Origin: Phycisphaerae bacterium
GTDB taxonomy: Bacteria; Planctomycetota; Phycisphaerae; Sedimentisphaerales; Anaerohalosphaeraceae
NCBI GenBank assembly: GCA_018433925.1
Contig: JAHDQI010000059.1
Location: 1 to 40,358, forward strand
Direction: 5' to 3'
Length of the DNA: 40,358 nucleotides
The translations under genes were made by a program, and so were the position numbers. Shown here piece by piece: positions 22,685 to 36,733 of the stretch (its first letter is position 1; each line of letters opens with the position of its first letter). A model generated the notes under the pieces. It was not told the origin of the DNA, did no database searches, and worked only from the letters and a program-made list of their open reading frames with translations.

Positions 22685-24433
22685 ATGAAAATTCATACAC
22701 AAGAAACCCAGTCAGCCAGGCAGAACGGCTCGGCGCTGATTCTGGCCGTGATGCTCCTGCTGATGCTCTCGATCTTTTCGCTGGGGGTTCTCAAAAGCGC
22801 CGAAGGGGCCCATGTACAGGCCGTGCGGCATAAACGCGAGTCCGCCGCCCGCGCCGCGGCTCAGGCCGCCTACGAAAAGGCCGTCTTTGCGATGAGTCAA
22901 GAGCCGGACCTGCTCTCCACCCTGGCCGCAGGACCTCTTTCGGCTGCCCTGAACTTTCCGGACAGTCAGTCTTCCTATACCGTCAACCTGGCCGCATTCA
23001 TGCAGGCCAAACCCGTCTATCGAATCACCGCCGTCGGACAGTCCGGCACCTTCGATCAGACCATCCAAACGTACGTCATCCAGGCCGTTAACGGCTGGGC
23101 CATGGGACGCTGCCAGATCCCCACCGGGGCCACCTCGCTGACGGATGTCAATTTTGTCAACGGCGAAAAAATCAACATGCCCATCGAAATCAACAAGCTG
23201 AACGACAGCCCCGACCTGCGCGATATCAAAATCACCGGCAATCCTTCATTCCTTCAGCCCGTCAATGTCAGCGAGTCGCGCCGCTCGAGTGTAGGGGTGG
23301 ATAAATACAGGGATGTCATGTCCACCTTCAAGGCAGGCATCTTTTTCGATCAACCCCAGATCCGGGTGGTCGAAGAAGAGGTCATCAATGCGAAAATCAA
23401 CCGTTTTAAAAATAACACCAATACTCGATTCTCGTTTACCCCGGTTGCCGCTGCTCCGCTGCCCAATCGGCTGCCCGCGGTACATCTCGAATTTTTCGTC
23501 CAAAACGGCCGGGGCAAGGTGCGAATCACAAACCACTGCACCATCCGCGGATTCAAACAGGCCTATGACAATCGGACCTATGATTTCAAAATCAAACCCG
23601 GCTCCGGCGGGGACCAATTTGAGCGATACCTGATTTACGCCTATCATGTCCGCAGCAGCAATGCCGATGACAATGGGGATCGGTTTATCGTTCCTCTTGA
23701 GGAAACCTATGTCTCTCAGGATTTCGGAGGATTGGTCTCCATCGCCGGAGGGCAGATTTTCGTCGACGGCAATGTGATCCTCGGTTGTCGCTGGCCGGAT
23801 ATGGGCCCCCTGGCCGACATGGTCCAGGGCCAGATCACCGTGGCGGCCACCGGCAATATCTGGGTCGGCAATTCCATTACTGTATCGGACTATGACGATC
23901 TGGGCAATCACTATCCGCGCAAGGCCGACGGCCTGCCCAGCGATTTGAACCCCAATATTCTCGGACTTGTCGCCAAAGGAGTCATCAAAGTTGTCGATCC
24001 GGGCATGAGCGCTTACAGTTACGTGGATGGCTCGCCGATAGAACCTCCCGGATACGAATATGTTCCGATCGGACTGCCGGATAATCCCTTCTGGCCGAAC
24101 AGCAAAAACAGAAATCTGCCCGATCCGATCATTGTTGAGGCCTCGCTGACCATCGGAGGCGGCGGCTGGGGCGCTGAAAACGTGAAACGAAGCTATTATG
24201 GCGGAAGAAAAGAAAACGGCGGCGTCCAGGATACGCTGATCCTGCGAGGCAATATTACCGAGTCGATCCGGGGCGTGGTCGGGATTACCAACCAGGACGG
24301 GTATTTAAAGGAATATCACTGGGACCCGCGGCTGCAAACAGGGATTTTACCGGGCAATATCTGGCTGAAAGGAAAATTCGTGCCGGTGCCCGGCGGCTGG
24401 AATGAAAGACAGATTGTGCAGAATCAAGAATGA
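22685..24433 (+). CDS. Large PilX-like pilus protein, second of a tandem pair
   Basis: 582 residues, GAGG upstream of ATG 22685, 24 bases after the previous stop. It is paralogous to the preceding gene along its whole length: RQNGSALILAVMLLLMLSIF at the start, the alanine-rich RESAARAAAQAAYEKAVF helix, QTYVIQAVNGWAMGRCQIPTG, AATGNIWVGNSITVSDYDD, and the shared end GGGWGAENVKRSYYGGRKEN. Sequence has diverged clearly (by eye roughly half identical), so the duplication is not recent. Both copies are intact. They may form a heteromeric tip or bind different surfaces. Confidence 0.85.
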   Translation: MKIHTQETQSARQNGSALILAVMLLLMLSIFSLGVLKSAEGAHVQAVRHKRESAARAAAQAAYEKAVFAMSQEPDLLSTLAAGPLSAALNFPDSQSSYTVNLAAFMQAKPVYRITAVGQSGTFDQTIQTYVIQAVNGWAMGRCQIPTGATSLTDVNFVNGEKINMPIEINKLNDSPDLRDIKITGNPSFLQPVNVSESRRSSVGVDKYRDVMSTFKAGIFFDQPQIRVVEEEVINAKINRFKNNTNTRFSFTPVAAAPLPNRLPAVHLEFFVQNGRGKVRITNHCTIRGFKQAYDNRTYDFKIKPGSGGDQFERYLIYAYHVRSSNADDNGDRFIVPLEETYVSQDFGGLVSIAGGQIFVDGNVILGCRWPDMGPLADMVQGQITVAATGNIWVGNSITVSDYDDLGNHYPRKADGLPSDLNPNILGLVAKGVIKVVDPGMSAYSYVDGSPIEPPGYEYVPIGLPDNPFWPNSKNRNLPDPIIVEASLTIGGGGWGAENVKRSYYGGRKENGGVQDTLILRGNITESIRGVVGITNQDGYLKEYHWDPRLQTGILPGNIWLKGKFVPVPGGWNERQIVQNQE

Positions 24434-24443
24434 AGACGGACCG

Positions 24444-25529
24444 ATGTCACTAAAAACAAAATATCAAAACCTGCTTCGCAGACTGGAAACAAACACGCTC
24501 GAATGGGCAGGACTGGACATCGGCTCCGGTTCGGTAAAAACCATCCGGGGAAGCTGGAACGATCACCGGTTTACAGCCACCGGCGCCTGCCTGGTCGAAT
24601 TGGAGGATCGGGATCCGCAGGATACCCGGAAACAGGATGACCTCACACAGGCCATCCGTCTCTGCCTGCAAAAAACCGGCCTGAAAACACAATGCGCTAT
24701 CTGTGCTCACAGCGGGCCGGAAGTAGTCACCCGGCATTTTCGGTTCCCCCCCCTGCCCGATGAGGCCCTGGCCCAGGCCACTCAGCTTGAAGCCCAGCAG
24801 ATGAGCCCCTTTGATCCCGATCAGAGTATCATCTCGTATCAGGCCGTACCGGCCTCCGAGACGGCCGCTGAGTCCGGACGGGAGGGATTCCTCGTCGTGG
24901 CCATGCGAGAAGCCATCGAACAAAAAATCGACTGGGTCCGCGCCGCAGGCGGAAAAGTGCTGCTGATGGATGTCGAAGGACTGGCCGCCCTGAATTGCCT
25001 GCTGACGTGCCTGCCGCAAACCCGCAACAAAACGGTCGGCCTCATCCATATCGGAAACCGCTTTACCACCGTCTCGATTCTCGGCGAAAACGGCATTCCC
25101 TTCATTCGGGATCTGACCTATGCCGGGAAAAATATCCGGGCCGCGATCCGCCAGCAGACCGGCCTGTCCGATCCGGAAATCCGAAAGGCCCTGTTTCATA
25201 CCGACGGCCTTGTGCCCGATTCGGATGCACTTCGGACGGCCCTGAAAAACGCCGCCACGCGAAATATCTCCGACATCAACGAAACGCTTCGCTATTACCT
25301 GACCCAGAATCCGTCAGGCCAACTCAAACAACTCTACATAACAGGCGGCTGGGCCATGAGCCGGAGCTTTGTTGAACTGCTGGCCGGGGCGCTGCCGATT
25401 CAGGTGGAGGTCTTCAATCCGTTTCAGACTCTCCCCATCGAGGCGCCGCCTGCCCAGGAGTCACTGATGAAACAATCCGGCCCGGCCCTTGTGGTCGCTG
25501 CCGGTCTGGCCATGAGGACAATCCGATGA
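24444..25529 (+). CDS. pilM: Type IV pilus assembly protein PilM (actin-like ATPase)
   Basis: 361 residues from ATG 24444, 10 bases after the previous stop; an upstream in-frame ATG at 24402 would overlap the preceding gene. It has an actin/FtsA-like fold: AGLDIGSGSVKTIRG (phosphate-1 loop), VGLIHIGNRFTTVSIL (phosphate-2), YITGGWAMSRS (adenosine loop) and LVVAAGLAMR at the end. PilM sits on the cytoplasmic face and binds the N-terminal tail of PilN, aligning the inner-membrane ring. The next gene starts inside its stop codon (ATGA). Confidence 0.92.
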   Translation: MSLKTKYQNLLRRLETNTLEWAGLDIGSGSVKTIRGSWNDHRFTATGACLVELEDRDPQDTRKQDDLTQAIRLCLQKTGLKTQCAICAHSGPEVVTRHFRFPPLPDEALAQATQLEAQQMSPFDPDQSIISYQAVPASETAAESGREGFLVVAMREAIEQKIDWVRAAGGKVLLMDVEGLAALNCLLTCLPQTRNKTVGLIHIGNRFTTVSILGENGIPFIRDLTYAGKNIRAAIRQQTGLSDPEIRKALFHTDGLVPDSDALRTALKNAATRNISDINETLRYYLTQNPSGQLKQLYITGGWAMSRSFVELLAGALPIQVEVFNPFQTLPIEAPPAQESLMKQSGPALVVAAGLAMRTIR

Positions 25530-26185
25530 AATTTACCATTGACCTGCTCCAGGGAAAAGGACTTCCCCAGAAAAGCCGGCCGGGCACAATCGCACTGGCT
25601 GCCATCCCGTTCCTGGTCCCCCTTCTGGCGACCGGACTGATGGCCGGACAGTGGTATTACAAGCAAAGCTTGATCGCAACCGAACAGGCCATTCTCGAAC
25701 AGAATCAGCAATACATCCAAAAGCATAAAGAAGAGCTGGAGCTTTATGAATCCACGCAGGAACAGATACTCGGGGCGCGCCATGAAATCAAAAATATCCA
25801 GGAGGCCCTGGAGTTCGAAGTCTCATTGTCCCCCCTCCTGCTGGAGCTGGTAGAAACCCTTCCCGACGAGATTTTTGTCACCCGGCTGGATTTCGAATAT
25901 CAGCCGCTTCGCCGAAAGGCCGTCAACCCCGCCAATAACATGACCGTCTACCAGCGGGTGATTCGACGGACCCTGCGCATGATTCTGGCCGGTCCCAACC
26001 AGATCGAAACCGACCAGGCGGTCGATGCCTACATCCAGACGCTGCGCAGCAGCCCGGCGCTCTCGCAAGTTGCGGAGAAAATTCAAATTACCTCTCGGCA
26101 GGAAACCGAAATCGATAAAAAAATTCTCCTGGTCTATGAAATCAAATGTCCGCTCATTGAACAAATACAGAAGATGAACCCATGA
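25526..26185 (+). CDS. pilN: PilN-like inner-membrane alignment protein
   Basis: 219 residues. A short cytosolic N-terminus (MKFTIDLLQGKGL) is followed by one membrane helix (about 23-44), a coiled coil (about 48-95; EQAILEQNQQYIQKHKEELE) and a ferredoxin-like periplasmic domain (LLELVETLPDEIFVTRLDFE ... RMILAGPNQIETDQAVDAYI). This is the PilN/GspL C-terminal layout. It partners PilM and PilO. The start overlaps pilM's stop as ATGA. Confidence 0.85.
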   Translation: MKFTIDLLQGKGLPQKSRPGTIALAAIPFLVPLLATGLMAGQWYYKQSLIATEQAILEQNQQYIQKHKEELELYESTQEQILGARHEIKNIQEALEFEVSLSPLLLELVETLPDEIFVTRLDFEYQPLRRKAVNPANNMTVYQRVIRRTLRMILAGPNQIETDQAVDAYIQTLRSSPALSQVAEKIQITSRQETEIDKKILLVYEIKCPLIEQIQKMNP

Positions 26186-26799
26186 TCTTTCAAAGCAAAA
26201 AATACTGGATTACTGTCGGGGCCTTCTGGGCTCCCTGTCTGGCCCTGGTCGTCCTCGGCTATCTGCTGGCCATGGAACCCCAGGCCCGGCGGTACAAAAA
26301 CGTCCACGAGGCCTTCATTGTCAGCAATGATCGGGTCAGCGTGGCCCGACTGGCCTCTTTTGAGGACACCCGCAATCGGCAGCAAACGCTTCTGGAGAAC
26401 CTGCGCGGAACCATCAGCGAATTCATCGTCCCGGCCGATCAAAAAGATCGAATCCTCTTTGAAATCAGCCGCCTGGCCAGCACACTCGAACTGGCCGACT
26501 ATGCCGGAAAAAATCAGCAGGACCTCTGGAACATCGAAGAGGAAGAACAGATCAAAATCCACCGCTTGTGGATGACCATTAACTTCAAGTCCACATTCCG
26601 GCAGTTCGCCGAATTCCTGAACTCGATGGAACGAAACCTGCCGGCAGTATTTGTCGAAAGCGCAGGCATTGAATCCGTCCGGGAACAACCCGGCCGGCAC
26701 CGGGCCAAGCTCCTGATTGCCTTCTTTACGCGGCCCGAGACAAAATCCGCCGCCGCGGCCGAGCCGGACAAAACAACAACGCGGGAGTCTCTTTCATGA
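26182..26799 (+). CDS. pilO: PilO-like inner-membrane alignment protein
   Basis: 205 residues: a membrane helix (about 10-30), coiled coil and a small periplasmic domain (HRLWMTINFKSTFRQFAEFL) as in PilO/GspM. The C-terminal tail is low complexity (ETKSAAAAEPDKTTTRESLS). It starts ATGA over pilN's stop and ends ATGA over the ParA-like gene. Sequence similarity to PilO is weak by eye; the call leans on topology and position between pilN and the secretin. Confidence 0.78.
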   Translation: MIFQSKKYWITVGAFWAPCLALVVLGYLLAMEPQARRYKNVHEAFIVSNDRVSVARLASFEDTRNRQQTLLENLRGTISEFIVPADQKDRILFEISRLASTLELADYAGKNQQDLWNIEEEEQIKIHRLWMTINFKSTFRQFAEFLNSMERNLPAVFVESAGIESVREQPGRHRAKLLIAFFTRPETKSAAAAEPDKTTTRESLS

Positions 26800-27593
26800 A
26801 AACAATAGCCGTCATCAACCAAAAGGGCGGCTGTGGAAAAACCACAACCGCTGTCAACCTGGCCGCGGCGCTGGCCACCCGCGACCTTCGCACCCTGCTG
26901 GTGGATTTGGATCCCCAGGGACATGCCACGCTCGGCTTCGGACTCCAGCCCGACACCCTCGAACAAACCATTTACGATGTCATTGTAAACCCCCAGGCCC
27001 TGCTGACGCGAATCCTGCTGCCGACGCAGATCGCAACTCTGCAGATCGCACCCAGCAATGTGCTCCTCAGCGGCGCCGAATCGCAGCTCATGCGTATGGT
27101 CGACCGCGAGTATATCCTGCGCCAATGCCTCGCGGAAGTCGCCGACCGGTTCGACTGCTGCATCATTGACTGCTCTCCCTCGCTCAGTCTGCTGACCCTC
27201 AACGCCATGGTCGCCGCCGACGAACTGATTATTCCCGTCCAGACGCATTATTACGCCATCGAAGGACTTCGCCAGGTCATGGAAACGATTGATGTCATCC
27301 GGGAACGTTTTCATCCGGAGCTGCGTATGCGCGGCATCCTCCTGACACTCGCCGAGCGACGCACGCTCCTCAGCCGGCAGGTCGAAGAGCAGATGCGCGA
27401 ATACTTCGGCGACCGGGTTCTTCAAACCGTCATCCATCGGAGTATCCGTCTGGCCGAGGCTCCCAGCGCCGGTCAACCCGTAATCACCTACGCTCCCGAC
27501 TGCACCGGGGCAATCGAATATCAATCTTTAGCAGATGAGTTAAGCCATGACATCCAAATCAGGACTGCACAAGAAAGTTGCCTTCATATTTGA
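26796..27593 (+). CDS. ParA/MinD-like ATPase within the pilus operon
   Basis: 265 residues. Deviant Walker A KGGCGKTTT (10-18), LVDLDPQGHATLG (Walker A'), CIIDCSPSLSLLTLNAMVAA (Walker B), and the Soj/ParA ending (SRQVEEQMREYFGDRV, RLAEAPSAGQPV). ParA ATPases dimerise on ATP and move cargo along nucleoid or membrane. There is no ParB or centromere nearby, and the gene overlaps pilO by 4 bases, so it probably positions or controls the pilus/secretion machine rather than segregating DNA. It lacks an obvious C-terminal MinD-type amphipathic helix. Similar orphan ParA proteins place polar machines in other bacteria; the role here is inference. Confidence 0.9.
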   Translation: MKTIAVINQKGGCGKTTTAVNLAAALATRDLRTLLVDLDPQGHATLGFGLQPDTLEQTIYDVIVNPQALLTRILLPTQIATLQIAPSNVLLSGAESQLMRMVDREYILRQCLAEVADRFDCCIIDCSPSLSLLTLNAMVAADELIIPVQTHYYAIEGLRQVMETIDVIRERFHPELRMRGILLTLAERRTLLSRQVEEQMREYFGDRVLQTVIHRSIRLAEAPSAGQPVITYAPDCTGAIEYQSLADELSHDIQIRTAQESCLHI

Positions 27594-28248
27594 CGGAACG
27601 CCGTCCGGTTCAACGCCGAACGCCTCTGAAGCGCCGGTCTCCGACAAGACGCCGCAGACCCCTTCCGTGCGCCCGCCGACAACCACCTATGGGCCGCAGC
27701 CGATTGCCGCTCCGGCAAAACCGGCGACCGCCAGGCCCACGGCCAAAAAAACACAGCCCGCGGCACGACAAAAATCGAAGCAGGCACGCAAAAAACAAAA
27801 AACCGATCCAAAGCAGGCCAAAATGCTCGTCCTCGTCGCCGTCCTGGCCGTCGTGTTTGTAGGCATCCTCTTTTTCGTACTCAACAGCCCAACGCCGGCT
27901 CCTAAAAAGGCCGGCGCCGCCAACGCCGCGGCCGCCGCCGTCACCCCCTCTCCGGAACCGGAGGTCCCCGCCCCGGCCGCAACAAACTGGACTCGTCCGG
28001 AACCCTGGCCCGACGAAACACGCGATCCCATGACCCCCGGGCCCCAGGGACGTGCCGCCGACGGAAGCGCCTACGACCGGCTCGTCAAAGGCATCGTCTA
28101 CAGCCAGACAAACCCTTCGGCGATCGTTGGAGACCGGATTGTCTCTGTGGGAGATACCATCAACGGGATCACCATCGTTGCGATTGAAAAAGACGCCGTG
28201 GAATTCGAAAAAGACGGCAAACGATGGACACAGCCCGTTCAGCGATAA
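27547..28248 (+). CDS. PilP/GspB-like periplasmic connector
   Basis: 233 residues overlapping the ParA-like gene by 47 bases. The cytosolic N-terminus (about 1-92) is rich in Pro, Ala and Lys and disordered-looking. A single membrane helix follows (about 93-113), then a Pro/Ala linker (114-165). The small C-terminal domain (about 172-233) has GIVYSQTNPSAIVGDRIVSV, GDTINGITIVAIEKDAVEF and KRWTQ, characteristic of the GspB/PilP-type homology region that links the inner-membrane ring to the secretin. Its place just before the secretin gene fits. Confidence 0.78.
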   Translation: MTSKSGLHKKVAFIFDGTPSGSTPNASEAPVSDKTPQTPSVRPPTTTYGPQPIAAPAKPATARPTAKKTQPAARQKSKQARKKQKTDPKQAKMLVLVAVLAVVFVGILFFVLNSPTPAPKKAGAANAAAAAVTPSPEPEVPAPAATNWTRPEPWPDETRDPMTPGPQGRAADGSAYDRLVKGIVYSQTNPSAIVGDRIVSVGDTINGITIVAIEKDAVEFEKDGKRWTQPVQR

Positions 28249-28299
28249 GTCCGGCAATCGACCCGCTTTTTTAGACAGACAAGAGAAAGGAATGATAGG

Positions 28300-29790
28300 A
28301 TGGAAAAGACAAAGGGAAAACAAATCGGACTGCTGCTGCTCTTTTTGACAGCGGCCGCGGGGGTGACCGGACAGGAATCTCAGTCCCCCGACCCGGCTTC
28401 TACAACCGTTTCCGCCGCGGTGCGGGCCGAACTGCTGACCCCCGTACAGCAGCGAATGCAGCAAACGGTCAGCGTGGACTTTCGAGACACTCCGATTGAG
28501 GATGTGCTGCGGATTCTTGCGGTCAAAGCGGGCGTCAACATCATCAAAAGCCCCAAGGTCGAAGGAACCGTCACGGCCACTCTGACCGAGGTGCCCCTCA
28601 TCGAAGTACTCAGCAACATCCTCGAAATACACGGCTACAGCTACCTGGCCTCCAATAACATGATCCGGGTCATCCCGACCGAAGAGATCGTTGACGTTCG
28701 CGAAAAAACCGTCAGCCGGGTTTATCGGATCACCTACGCCGACGTCAAAGAAGTGGAAATGGCGCTTCGAAAATTTATCTCTGAACAGGGATCCATCTCC
28801 TCCAATCCCGGTACCAGCAATATCATCGTCACTGACGTGGAAAGCAAAATCAAAGCCATTGACACCTTCGTCGATGAAATCGACCGCATCACCCCGCAGA
28901 TTCTCGTCGAGGCCAAAATCTATGACATTTCCTCCAAGGACAGTCTCGATCTCGGCGTCCAGTGGCAAATGGGAACCAACACCGCGTACGGCATTGACGA
29001 TACCGGTTATTACAACGGAGATGCGGTCACCGGCTATATCGGCAATGCGATGCAGGGAACCAATACCAACCCGGCTATTACCAGTGTCTTCTCCGGCATG
29101 GTCGGCAAAACCTCCGGCACCGACGGGCTGTTCCGATTCGGCATCGTCAATGACGCGGTTCGGCTCGAGGCCGCCATCCGGGCACAGCAGGAAGACGTCC
29201 GCGCCAAACTCCTGGCCAATCCGCGCATCATGGTCCTCGACAATATGCAGGCCGAAATCAAGATCGTCGAAGAAATTCCCTATCAGGAACTAACCGAGAG
29301 CAGCGCCGGAGGCAGCATCGGAACCACCGAATTCCGCGATGTCGGCGTCGAGCTGCGGGTCACCCCGCACTTAACCCGGGACGGCCTTATCCGGCTGCTC
29401 CTGAATCCGAAATTCAGTATCCGAACCGGTGATGTGGTCGTCGCCGGCGCCAACAACGCCAGCCCACAGCCCATCGTTGCCAGCCGGGAAACCACAACCA
29501 CCGCCCTGATCAAAGACGGCCAGACCGTTGTCATCGGCGGACTGAAAAAACAGGACGTGTCCCAGCAGATCAACAAAATCCCCCTCCTCGGCGATCTGCC
29601 CCTGCTCGGCTTCCTCTTTAAATCCGAAGGCGAAACCACCATCAACAGCGAACTGGTAATCTTTATCACGCCTCACCTGGTCACCGACCCGGTACTGACT
29701 GAGGAAGAACAGCGGCACCTGGCCAATACCGTTTTTGTTTCACCCCGGGAGCCAAACACACGGGTAACGGTGGAACAGATGCAAAAATAA
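28300..29790 (+). CDS. pilQ: Secretin (PilQ/GspD family)
   Basis: 496 residues with a signal peptide (about 1-26). N0/STN-like domain about 63-130 (VDFRDTPIEDVLRILAVKAG), N1/KH-like domain about 145-200 (RITYADVKEVEMALRKFI), then the secretin beta-barrel domain (about 205-480): LVEAKIYDISSKDSLDLGVQ, AKLLANPRIMVLDNMQAEI, VGVELRVTPHLTRDG and the signature VVIGGLKKQDVSQQINKIPL. It forms the outer-membrane gate for the pilus or secreted pseudopilus. It is short for PilQ and lacks AMIN domains. Last gene of the cluster, followed by a good terminator. Confidence 0.94.
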   Translation: MEKTKGKQIGLLLLFLTAAAGVTGQESQSPDPASTTVSAAVRAELLTPVQQRMQQTVSVDFRDTPIEDVLRILAVKAGVNIIKSPKVEGTVTATLTEVPLIEVLSNILEIHGYSYLASNNMIRVIPTEEIVDVREKTVSRVYRITYADVKEVEMALRKFISEQGSISSNPGTSNIIVTDVESKIKAIDTFVDEIDRITPQILVEAKIYDISSKDSLDLGVQWQMGTNTAYGIDDTGYYNGDAVTGYIGNAMQGTNTNPAITSVFSGMVGKTSGTDGLFRFGIVNDAVRLEAAIRAQQEDVRAKLLANPRIMVLDNMQAEIKIVEEIPYQELTESSAGGSIGTTEFRDVGVELRVTPHLTRDGLIRLLLNPKFSIRTGDVVVAGANNASPQPIVASRETTTTALIKDGQTVVIGGLKKQDVSQQINKIPLLGDLPLLGFLFKSEGETTINSELVIFITPHLVTDPVLTEEEQRHLANTVFVSPREPNTRVTVEQMQK

Positions 29791-32584: not shown

Positions 32585-34522
32585 TTATCCTTCCCTTTGT
32601 TTATCCGTCTCCAAAGAGACAGGTTTCGATTCCATTGAATACTCACTTTCTTTAATAATATCAACACGAATGTTTGTATAGCGGGGACAAACTGATTTAT
32701 CGGGAGGATTCCCGAATTGCCGCGTATAAAAGACACGATCGCTTAACCCGGAATATCCCTCAAGTATCCCGCCCTGCCGGTAATAAAATGAAGCTTTTTC
32801 ACGGGTTCCCAGACCGACAAAAACAGAAGGGTGTTCTGTGGAGAACTCCCACGAACTCCAGAGACCTTTTTGGGCGGCTTGCAGCAAAGGCGAGACGCCG
32901 ATCAGCTCATCCGGAATCCCATCCCGATCCGTATCGGCCCAGGCCACCGCGTGAAAGGCCCCCTCGGCTCCGGCAAGAACATGCTTGAGTTGAACCCGCA
33001 GGCGGCACGGAACCGCAAGGGCCTGGTCGGGAAGGACTTGCCAAACATAACAGGCCTGTGCCTGAGTGACACGGATGTCAACCTGTTCTTCAAGCACTCC
33101 TAAAGTACCCCTTACTGCGGCTTCGTAGGTTCTTGCCAATTCAAGAATATCATCCGCCAGGAAGGGCCGGTCGCCAACCCTGAGCCACTTGACTGCCCCG
33201 CGCAGATATCGGTGTGTTGTCTGCTGAAAATCTTCGGAACAGGCAAACGACCTCGAAAGCACGGGAGCCACGATTTGATGAATCGCATAACAAGCCAGCC
33301 CCGGGTACTCCGGAAGCTGCTTTCGGATCCGATCGTACACCTCCCAGCCCTCTTCAGGGCGGATCCATCCTTCCCGGCACGCATCCGCCAATAGCTTCCA
33401 GGCCTCCGTGCAATAAGGATTTTCTTCAAGGGCCTGATTCAGAAGCGACAAATAGTGTGCCTTCTCCGCCTGAAGCATAAAAATATGACAGGCCGCCAAG
33501 GCATTTCGATATCGTTCATAAGAGAGATTCATCGCGCCGGCCAGCATAGCAAATTCGTACTGAATTTTTCGTTTTCGCGTCAAGGGACACAGAAAGTAGC
33601 CGTTTTTGCGCCCTTCCGTGCCGCCATACCGAACAGGGTACGGCCGCTCCCCCGCCAGCCACCCCTCATACGCATGCCATCGTTCCAGCAAACGGACCGA
33701 CGGAACACCAAGACATTTAAATACACCGCTGGCATAGTACGCCTGCTGCGAACAAACCCCGCCCCGCTGGAGAATGGCAGGAAGCGCCATGGCCCCCGGA
33801 ACCTCGGTATAATTCCGAGCACGATCACCGGTTATATATTTCGGATCCGAGTGAATCCGACCAAGACTTTCCAGGGATCGATCCCGGTAATGCCGAAGCG
33901 CCCATTCCCTCTCGGCGATGGGAATGTCATTATCCGCAATATGCAGAAGCAGCGGCCACGGCAGGGTATCCAGCGGGTAAAGCATCTCCCCCTGATGCTG
34001 AAGATAATAGCCAAAGGATTCGCGGCATGACGGAACCGGACGCCCCGCAGCCACCCAATCCATCCAGTCAGCTCGAATCGTTTCCCCTTTCGCCTGACCA
34101 TACACAAAGGCAAACGCCAGTCCGAGTTGACGGAATTGATCAAATTGTCGGCCGTAGGTTTTTTTCAACTCCCACAAACAGGGTACCACCTGGGGGCTAT
34201 AATCCGGATGCAGGCCCACTAACAAATCCCGATACAAATCCTCATCCCCCTCGATCCAATCCCAGAATCCAACCGGAGCGTCAATCTCATGTTTCGCGCG
34301 GCTTGCCGAATAACGAAAAAACTGATCCATCACAGAAGCAGACAAAACTCCCTCGGCGGCCGATTCAGAGAGCTTGTGTTCTTCCAGGGAGACTAAAAGA
34401 GATAAATCAGAATCCGAAAATGCCGAAAACGAAAAAAAACCTGCATACAGAAAGAGCAATATCCCCGTTCCTCCTCGAATCCGCCTGCATGGCAGCCCAG
34501 ATGCCTTTCTGTTCAAATCCAT
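32585..34522 (-). CDS. Secreted transglutaminase-like protein
   Basis: 645 residues from ATG 34522 (GGAG seven bases upstream), giving a signal peptide (GILLFLYAGFFSFSAFS). A much longer frame upstream lacks a ribosome site and would hide the signal. The transglutaminase-like core has QRGGVCSQQAYYASGVFKCL with Cys257 and WHAYEGWL with His283. The Cys-to-His distance (26) is short for the family and the Asp is not certain. After it come helical, repeat-like segments (about 315-480) and a C-terminal beta domain with a DTDRDGIPDEL calcium-loop-like motif. It may be a cysteine protease or amidase on the cell surface. Moderately sure of the fold, unsure of activity. Confidence 0.75.
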   Translation of the reverse strand: MDLNRKASGLPCRRIRGGTGILLFLYAGFFSFSAFSDSDLSLLVSLEEHKLSESAAEGVLSASVMDQFFRYSASRAKHEIDAPVGFWDWIEGDEDLYRDLLVGLHPDYSPQVVPCLWELKKTYGRQFDQFRQLGLAFAFVYGQAKGETIRADWMDWVAAGRPVPSCRESFGYYLQHQGEMLYPLDTLPWPLLLHIADNDIPIAEREWALRHYRDRSLESLGRIHSDPKYITGDRARNYTEVPGAMALPAILQRGGVCSQQAYYASGVFKCLGVPSVRLLERWHAYEGWLAGERPYPVRYGGTEGRKNGYFLCPLTRKRKIQYEFAMLAGAMNLSYERYRNALAACHIFMLQAEKAHYLSLLNQALEENPYCTEAWKLLADACREGWIRPEEGWEVYDRIRKQLPEYPGLACYAIHQIVAPVLSRSFACSEDFQQTTHRYLRGAVKWLRVGDRPFLADDILELARTYEAAVRGTLGVLEEQVDIRVTQAQACYVWQVLPDQALAVPCRLRVQLKHVLAGAEGAFHAVAWADTDRDGIPDELIGVSPLLQAAQKGLWSSWEFSTEHPSVFVGLGTREKASFYYRQGGILEGYSGLSDRVFYTRQFGNPPDKSVCPRYTNIRVDIIKESEYSMESKPVSLETDKQREG

Positions 34523-34689
34523 ACCTCTGCTCCGTGAAAGTCCTGCCTTTCCCTGCTTGAATCTAATCATACCCTTTGACTTGGAAAATGGTATACAAAA
34601 AGCACTCTCCTGACTGACAAAACAGCATTCCGGAGAAAATATCTGCCAAAATGACAAGGACAAAACCCATTTAAGCATATCATAAATAT

Positions 34690-34710
34690 ATATAAATAAA
34701 GCGTTTATAT
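34690..34710. promoter_or_regulatory. Inverted repeat upstream of the dnaK promoter
   Basis: ATATAAA (34690-34696), 7-base spacer, TTTATAT (34704-34710), ending 16 bases before the sigma-54 -24 box. AT-rich, so chance is possible; it could be a regulator site. Confidence 0.3.
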
Positions 34711-34725
34711 CTTTACTGGTGAATC

Positions 34726-34741
34726 TGGCACGTCGTTTGCA
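34726..34741 (+). promoter_or_regulatory. Sigma-54 promoter of dnaK
   Basis: TGGCACG (34726-34732), four bases, TTGCA (34737-34741). This is a full match to the sigma-54 consensus TGGCACG-N4-TTGCW, with GG and GC separated by the required 10 bases. Transcription would begin near 34752, leaving a 5' leader of about 47 bases with AGGAG before the dnaK ATG. The divergent 276-base gap (34523-34798) holds no other recognised element apart from the inverted repeat at 34690. Confidence 0.8.
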
Positions 34742-34798
34742 ATCAATTATAGACAAGGTATTTTGTCAACAAAGAAGACCAGAACAGGAGACAGGATT

Positions 34799-36733
34799 AT
34801 GGCTAAAATTATCGGCATTGACCTGGGGACGACCAACTCAGTAGTAGCGGTCATGGAAGGCAGCAGCCCAAAGGTGCTCATTAACGCCAGCGGGAATCGA
34901 TTAACGCCTTCTGTGGTCGGCTTTACGGAAAAAGGCGACCGCCTGGTTGGCCAGACCGCCAGGCATCAACAGGTCACCAATCCGCAAAATACTGTCTTTT
35001 CAATCAAACGCTTTATGGGGCGCCGCCACAAAGAGGTCAGCTCCGAGGAAAAGATGGTTCCTTATACAATTACCGGCGGGCCAGAGGAACTGGTAAAAGT
35101 CTCTGTCCGAGGAAAAGAGTATACTCCACCTGAAATATCCGCAATGATCCTTCAGGATCTCAAAAAGACGGCCGAGGACTATCTGGGTGAGAAAGTCGAG
35201 CAGGCGGTAATTACCGTACCTGCCTATTTTAACGATGCACAGCGTCAGGCCACTAAGGATGCCGGCCGAATCGCGGGGTTGCAGGTCGAACGAATCATTA
35301 ACGAACCGACTGCCGCGGCCCTTGCTTATGGCCTGGAAAAAAAGAAAAACGAAAAAGTCGCCGTATTCGATTTTGGCGGCGGAACATTTGACATCTCCAT
35401 TCTCGACATAGGAGACAATGTATTTGAGGTTCTCAGTACCAACGGCGATACCCATCTCGGCGGCGATGACCTCGATGAGGTACTCATTAACTACCTGGCC
35501 GATGAATTCAAAAAGACCGAAGGCATCGACCTGCGAACCGATCCCATGGCCCACCAGCGGCTCAAAGAAGCGGCCGAAAAGGCCAAGTGCGAATTGAGCA
35601 CACAGGTTGAGACAGCCGTGAATCTGCCGTTTATCACGGCCGACCAGAACGGTCCCAAACATCTGAATATCACCCTGACACGCAGCAAGTTCGAGGCCCT
35701 TTGCGAACCGGTTTTCAACCGGCTCAAGGACCCCTGCCGCAAGGCCATCACAGATGCCAAACTCTCCGCCGGAGAAATCAACGAAGTCCTGCTGGTCGGC
35801 GGATCCACCCGGATTCCCAAGGTCCAGCAAACTGTCAAGGAAATCTTCCAGAAGGAACCCAACAGAAGTTTGAATCCGGATGAAGTAGTAGCCATCGGAG
35901 CAGCCATCCAGGGAGCCGTTCTGGCAGGGGATGCGGGCGTTAAAGATATTCTTTTGCTGGATGTGACCCCCCTCTCGCTGGGCGTCGAAACCCTCGGCGG
36001 TGTCATGACCAAACTGATCGAGCGAAACACCACCATTCCGACCAGCAAAAAAGAAGTCTTCTCCACCGCCGCGGACAGTCAGCCCAGCGTGGACATCCAT
36101 GTCTTGCAGGGCGAGCGCGAATTCGCTCGCGACAATCGCACCTTAGGCCGGTTTCAGCTTACCGGAATCCCCCCGGCCCCGCGAGGCATGCCCCAGATTG
36201 AGGTAACCTTCGACATCGATGCCAACGGAATCCTCAACGTTTCGGCCAAAGACCTCGGCACCGGGAAGGAACAATCCATCAAAATCCAGTCCAGTTCGGG
36301 TCTCAGCGAAGAGGAAATCGAAAAGATGACCCAAGAGGCCGAATCGCACGCAGAAGAAGACAAGAAGCGTCGCGAAGTGGTCGACCTGAAGAATCAGGCC
36401 GATCAGATGGTCTATCAGACTGAAAAACAACTCAAGGAATACGGCGACAAGGTCCCCGCGGATGTCCGCAGTAAGATCGAAAACGCCATGAATAACCTCA
36501 AAGAAGCCGCCAAAGGGGACGACGGCGAGGCAATCAAGCGGGCCCTTGAAAACTTTAACAGCGAAGTCCAGCAGCTCGGAAAAATCCTCTACGAAGAGGC
36601 GGCCAAAAAACAGGCGGCCGCCGGCGGCGCCTCGGCCGAAGGCCCTCAGCCGCAGCAGACACCGCCACCAGAGGGCGAGGTCCATCGTAAAGGCAATGAC
36701 GATGTCATTGATGCTGAGTTTGAGGCCAAATAA
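34799..36733 (+). CDS. dnaK: Chaperone DnaK (Hsp70)
   Basis: 644 residues from ATG 34799, with AGGAG nine bases upstream. The ATPase domain has all Hsp70 signatures: [34 protein letters not shown] and [13 protein letters not shown]. The substrate-binding domain (about 390-505) contains [16 protein letters not shown], followed by the helical lid and an Ala/Gly/Pro-rich tail ending [10 protein letters not shown]. Length is typical. The cytosolic chaperone folds proteins with DnaJ and GrpE, neither of which is in the window. Upstream is a sigma-54 promoter; I found no CIRCE operator (TTAGCACTC-type repeat). A strong terminator follows, so dnaK is probably a single-gene unit. Confidence 0.98.

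Follow-up and report, generated by a model that had tools for sequence, protein, structure and literature searches.

Sequence evidence suggests activator-dependent sigma-54 control of dnaK and other chaperone genes in Planctomycetota

Known regulons with the same target genes as those considered here are the sigma-32 (RpoH) and HrcA/CIRCE regulons, which work by sigma competition or repression, whereas the locus described below points to another class of sigma factor and to activation. In Chlamydia, a member of the same superphylum, a sigma-54 promoter likewise precedes an Hsp70-system operon, hrcA-grpE, and the activator AtoC/CtcC is a two-component protein of the NtrC type, like our candidate (PMC7482065, PMC8762339). 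However, the chlamydial promoter is paired with a tandem sigma-66 promoter that HrcA/CIRCE controls, whereas we found neither HrcA nor CIRCE; furthermore, unlike in Chlamydia, groESL, hsp20, and clpB share the element with dnaK. Heat shock arrays of Rhodopirellula baltica showed higher levels of dnaK, groEL, clpB, and hsp20 but unaltered rpoH, rpoE, and rpoN, from which their authors concluded that this organism must have a significantly different response cascade (PMC2754498). Planctomycetes reportedly lack HrcA (PMC4989314), and they are said to encode rpoH (PMC4989314, PMC2754498).

A matrix survey published in PLoS One in 2025 predicted an enrichment of sigma-54 promoters at chaperone genes in Planctomycetota and Bacteroidota, with predicted promoters of GroEL, IbpA, GroES, GrpE, DnaJ, and DnaK in Planctomycetia and fewer in Phycisphaerae (PMC12316311). 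The survey makes the same claim as we do, at the level of orthologous groups; its main text names no upstream activator site, and we noticed in it no promoter architecture or candidate activator for the chaperones. Phycisphaerae are fully covered here for dnaK (80/80). Thus, the sigma-54 enrichment at planctomycete chaperone genes was already predicted. What appears to be new is the activator site, together with the promoter architecture and the candidate activator: we found no report of them in the open literature, most subscription papers being outside the scope of the search. How planctomycetes switch on their chaperones has been a question since the R. baltica arrays, and the palindrome and candidate activator make it directly testable.

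The window, i.e., the whole stretch of 40,358 nucleotides analyzed here, encodes on its forward strand a DnaK (Hsp70) of 644 amino acids (34799 to 36733; PF00012, E value of 3e-266) that is 80 to 91% identical to the DnaK proteins of most relatives. Its ATG at 34799 is preceded by a ribosome-binding site, AGGAG, read directly at 34786 to 34790 on the same strand. Further upstream, TGGCACGTCGTTTGCA (34726 to 34741, forward strand) matches the -24/-12 consensus TGGCACG-N4-TTGCW exactly, with 10 bases between GG and GC. A preliminary description of this DNA had claimed an exact sigma-54 consensus with correct spacing 58 bases before dnaK; the re-reading bears out the match and the spacing, and the distance also stands once it is specified that 57 bases lie between the element and the ATG, the figure of 58 counting to the A. 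From the usual distance of 12 bases, the dnaK transcription start is predicted near 34752. The element is the only sigma-54 match in the window with fewer than two mismatches, and matches with two mismatches are as frequent as in shuffled sequences. The genome, of 3.76 Mb and 98.8% completeness, contains two exact matches to the 16-mer pattern, one before dnaK and one before a pair of hsp20 genes. Since base composition alone would, by our estimate, produce roughly one such match in a genome, the single dnaK site proves little by itself. The looser pattern TGGC-N7-TTGCW, with 72 matches against 46 for the reversed pattern, is uninformative at the genome scale.

Evidence beyond chance comes from the conservation of the site across dnaK loci. 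The named dnaK genes closest to that of the window come from the order Sedimentisphaerales (class Phycisphaerae, Planctomycetota). The site was present 45 to 181 bases before the dnaK ATG in all 30 loci of one set, namely, that of the window and those of 29 relatives from its genus, family, and order, and it was also present in 80 of the 80 named dnaK loci of Planctomycetota. A matrix recovered 78 of the latter; the remaining two (L122 and L124) carry TGGCATCGGGTTTGCC, which is below the matrix threshold and was recognized by eye.

The genome also encodes the sigma factor that such a promoter would need: RpoN (G000:C386) is present with its activator-interacting, core-binding, and DNA-binding domains (PF00309, PF04963, and PF04552), and about eight strong Sigma54_activat proteins accompany it, in line with the activator-dependent RpoN control proposed in the preliminary description. 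The same description had seen no CIRCE, and this holds more widely: we found none by reading the window promoter and no match to TTAGCACTC-N9-GAGTGCTAA with up to four mismatches before dnaK in 80 relatives. Besides, hrcA (PF01628) is absent from the 98.8% complete genome. Control of dnaK by HrcA/CIRCE was rejected on these two grounds.

Inspection of the DNA preceding the sigma-54 sites brought a palindrome, CTGCCAAAATGGCA, to light. In the window, this putative upstream activator site is represented by CTGCCAAAATGACA at 34643 to 34656 on the forward strand, 69 bases before the -24 box, and TGYCANNNTGRCA occurs only once, at that position. A palindrome of this family, with up to three mismatches, was present in 72 of 74 nonredundant dnaK upstream regions (exact in 51), against 0.8% of shuffled sequences. 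Its distance to the -24 box ranges from 54 to 122 bases and clusters at 64 to 69, 96 to 102, and 119 to 122 bases, spacings that would roughly fit whole helical turns. A possible second, degenerate copy, TGACAAAACAGCA, with three mismatches, was recognized by eye at 34615 to 34627 on the forward strand, and several relatives have similar second half-sites at the same place. Within this genome, the palindrome also precedes hsp20, as TGTCAAAATGGCA, and groES, as TGTCAGGGTGGCA, the latter having four mismatches to the full consensus with the palindrome itself intact. We infer that the palindrome is the binding site of a sigma-54 activator. NorR-type enhancer sites consist of a pair of half-sites, GTCA-N3-TGAC, with a 3-base spacer upstream of a sigma-54 promoter. 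The palindromic pair found here has the same spacer, a likeness that serves as a lead only. The regulon differs, and NorR is an NO-sensing protein, whereas our candidate activator is a response regulator.

The preliminary description had suggested looking for the same element at other chaperone genes, and it was found before the hsp20 pair and groES in this genome and before groES/groEL, hsp20, and clpB in relatives. The pattern TGGCAC-N5-TTGCW has eight sites in the genome, three of which are chaperone promoters (dnaK, the hsp20 pair, and groES, the last with a weaker sigma-54 site than the other two). The other five precede a flgB-like gene, an amidotransferase-like gene, two nitrogen-linked genes that adjoin an activator of the GAF type, and a gene for an 827-amino-acid protein near a response regulator. 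The palindrome is absent from these five nonchaperone sites and was seen at the chaperone promoters only; therefore, the nonchaperone promoters must use other activators.

We further searched genomes blindly, without coding information, for the palindrome, a gap, and a sigma-54 site in combination, using the reversed pattern as a control. Within Sedimentisphaerales, this yielded 41 matches in 75 genomes and 65 matches in 73 genomes, and the reversed pattern yielded none. A degenerate composite pattern was found in 111 of 294 genomes sampled over Planctomycetota, i.e., in fewer than half of them and with few matches in some families of the same class, and its reversal was found in no genome. 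Among 130 inspected loci, which come from the phylum search and two narrower searches and include some from close relatives, 124 composite matches (30/30, 27/30, 30/30, and 37/40 by batch) precede dnaK, groES/groEL, hsp20, or clpB, some of them reached via a leading receiver or grpE-like gene; the genes were named by eye from sequence motifs, with Pfam checks for a few. Because blind matches precede chaperone genes, the regulon is coherent and old within the phylum. The three exceptions among the batch of 40 further phylum matches (L402, L404, and L430) stand before a TPR-like gene, a glycosyltransferase-like gene, and an unrecognized frame of 408 amino acids. At L250, L252, and L276, in three genomes, the composite element precedes a protein of 279 to 303 amino acids with the motif QANRxNAQKSTGPRT; the one that was scanned (L250) had no Pfam match.

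Taken together, these data support the earlier reading that dnaK is under activator-dependent sigma-54 control, and we hold with considerable confidence that an AAA+ activator acts on this promoter from the palindrome and that the chaperone genes form one regulon, old in Planctomycetota, which would stand in the place of the sigma-32 or HrcA/CIRCE systems used by other bacteria. Sigma-54 RNA polymerase would read the dnaK promoter, waiting at 34726 to 34741, until an enhancer-binding protein of the AAA+ type, switched on perhaps by heat or misfolding, binds TGYCA-N3-TGRCA (34643 to 34656), some 70 bases upstream, reaches the closed complex by looping, and uses ATP hydrolysis to open the promoter; RNA would then start near 34752. 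The same pair of elements would drive hsp20, groES-groEL, and clpB. Such an activator- and ATP-dependent Hsp70 switch would be a control logic unlike sigma competition or repression, with an enhancer-binding protein governing the cell's chaperone supply, and the distribution of the elements suggests an unusual activator-driven heat shock system across much of Planctomycetota. A more far-reaching version is possible but offered tentatively: dnaK, groESL, hsp20, and clpB would constitute a sigma-54 regulon with a dedicated NtrC-type activator acting through the palindrome, would be the main proteotoxic-stress response in place of sigma-32/HrcA, and would include a feedback receiver in some groESL operons. 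At several loci, a stand-alone receiver of about 125 to 138 amino acids is encoded at the head of the groES-groEL operon, behind the same palindrome and sigma-54 promoter; the receiver is full at L370 to L376, L384, and L386 and degenerate at L251, L255, L257 to L260, L266, L268, and L279. Its acidic pocket is present in other classes and lost in the Phycisphaerae family f7; the protein may feed back on the activator or on its kinase.

Cells normally require DnaK continuously, while a sigma-54 promoter gives no transcript unless its activator is at work. We saw no sigma-70-like promoter at 34400 to 34850; therefore, basal DnaK may also need partial activity of the activator, and a second, sigma-70 promoter that we missed may be the main alternative for this basal supply. 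This need for basal expression speaks for an accessory role of the sigma-54 promoter, in which dnaK would be transcribed mainly from a promoter of the sigma-70 or sigma-32 type and boosted from the sigma-54 promoter under some condition other than heat, e.g., a developmental or nutrient signal. The tandem sigma-66 and sigma-54 promoters before hrcA-grpE in Chlamydia (PMC7482065) and the fact that rpoN itself is not heat regulated in Rhodopirellula (PMC2754498) point in the same direction. We nevertheless regard an accessory role as unlikely, given the lack of a sigma-70-like promoter in the region named and a palindrome that joins exactly the heat shock chaperones and little else.

As to which protein would act as the activator, the genome has 11 matches to PF00158, of which 8 are strong, and the 3 weak ones probably represent other AAA+ proteins. 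In relatives, the number of strong sigma-54 activators goes down to four. One group, the R clade, is monophyletic (support of 0.989) and has a member in all 18 genomes compared by clustering, tree, and tblastn (this one, G001, ten relatives with few activators, and six distant Phycisphaerae), in which dnaK is palindrome positive. The helix-turn-helix (HTH) sequence of the clade, GERTLYRKIKEY, is nearly invariant, in keeping with what a conserved target site would require. Its member here, L005 (G000:C201), shares with the NtrC, AtoC, and ZraR family a receiver, an AAA+ domain with a GAFTGA-type loop, and a Fis-type HTH, and we consider this NtrC-type response regulator the most likely activator, an assignment that is probable to a modest degree, the tie between R and the palindrome being one of co-occurrence. 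In many relatives, R stands in an operon in the order pnp, histidine kinase, and regulator. R differs from the NtrC family in its proposed target, the chaperone regulon, and in its kinase: the one that was scanned (240 amino acids) has HisKA and HATPase domains only, and the lack of any recognizable sensor domain in it suggests a signal from the cytosol. In this genome, R has no neighboring kinase, and a cold-shock-type gene lies between pnp and R.

With the same promoter and palindrome, the activator could instead be a single-domain protein of the S clade, which lacks a sensor and might be controlled by a partner, like PspF. This clade extends throughout Sedimentisphaerales, with members in all ten genomes with few activators and in this one (L009, which in the genus is flanked by pheT and rplM). 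Stand-alone receiver-like proteins are encoded close to some copies, and in some lineages the groESL operon starts with a receiver gene. However, no S-clade member was found among the activators of G089, a complete genome, and G091, both of which keep the dnaK palindrome and sigma-54 site, and we demoted the clade for this reason. Some copies also lie near secreted-protein genes, suggesting another role, and an S-clade activator seems improbable to us. At L206, L209, L213, and L217, single-domain sigma-54 activators adjoin receiver-like proteins, and in some of these loci, short genes for PEP-CTERM-like secreted proteins are also adjacent.

Neither proximity nor autoregulation singled out an activator: the dnaK, groES, and hsp20 loci examined contain no gene for an enhancer-binding protein, and no inspected composite match precedes an activator gene. 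Two other proteins were rejected. The GAF-type activator L004 is a neighbor of ammonium-transporter-like genes with CTACA-N3-TGTAG in their promoters, and some palindrome-positive genomes have no clear member of its group; L008 adjoins a flgD-like gene and is therefore probably flagellar. The locus with L004 and the ammonium-transporter-like genes (L156; G000:C381:12000-20500), where sigma-54 sites and CTACA-N3-TGTAG were read by eye, is probably a nitrogen regulon. Two of the eight strong activators (L164:1-933 and L168:3243-3836) lie at contig ends and appear to be the two parts of a single divided gene; they are probably one protein whose N-terminal part of about 200 amino acids has no Pfam match, and its complete relatives are L308, L309, L348, L352, and L354.

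The protein that binds the palindrome might also be a repressor, or some regulator other than the sigma-54 activator. Its link to activation comes from sequence evidence, and a second, proximal palindrome in relatives could be the activator's site instead. Yet the distance to the promoter with its helical-turn clusters, the symmetry, and the conservation are typical of upstream activator sites, and the palindrome is missing from the nonchaperone sigma-54 promoters of this genome; we thus judge this explanation highly improbable. In the upstream regions of L045 to L124 and L361 to L430, the space from the activator site to the -24 box contains this second palindrome, GTAAGT-N15-ACTTAC. It was found with up to three mismatches in 33 of 74 loci, compared with 16% of shuffled sequences, has the 15-base spacer in 23, and mostly ends 15 to 18 or 26 to 28 bases before the -24 box; in the dnaK promoter of this genome, it is degenerate.

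In favor of a chance match, a 16-base consensus that happens to fall before dnaK, are the expectation of about one exact copy in a genome of this size and the looser matches in the window, which are no commoner than in shuffles. However, the conservation of the site at every named dnaK locus refutes a chance match, the blind search recovers chaperone genes with zero control matches, and we give this explanation a negligible probability.

Elsewhere in the window, a run of genes at 24402 to 29790 encodes PilM-like, ParA/AAA_31, and secretin (GspD-like) domains; the cluster probably serves type II secretion or a type IV pilus.
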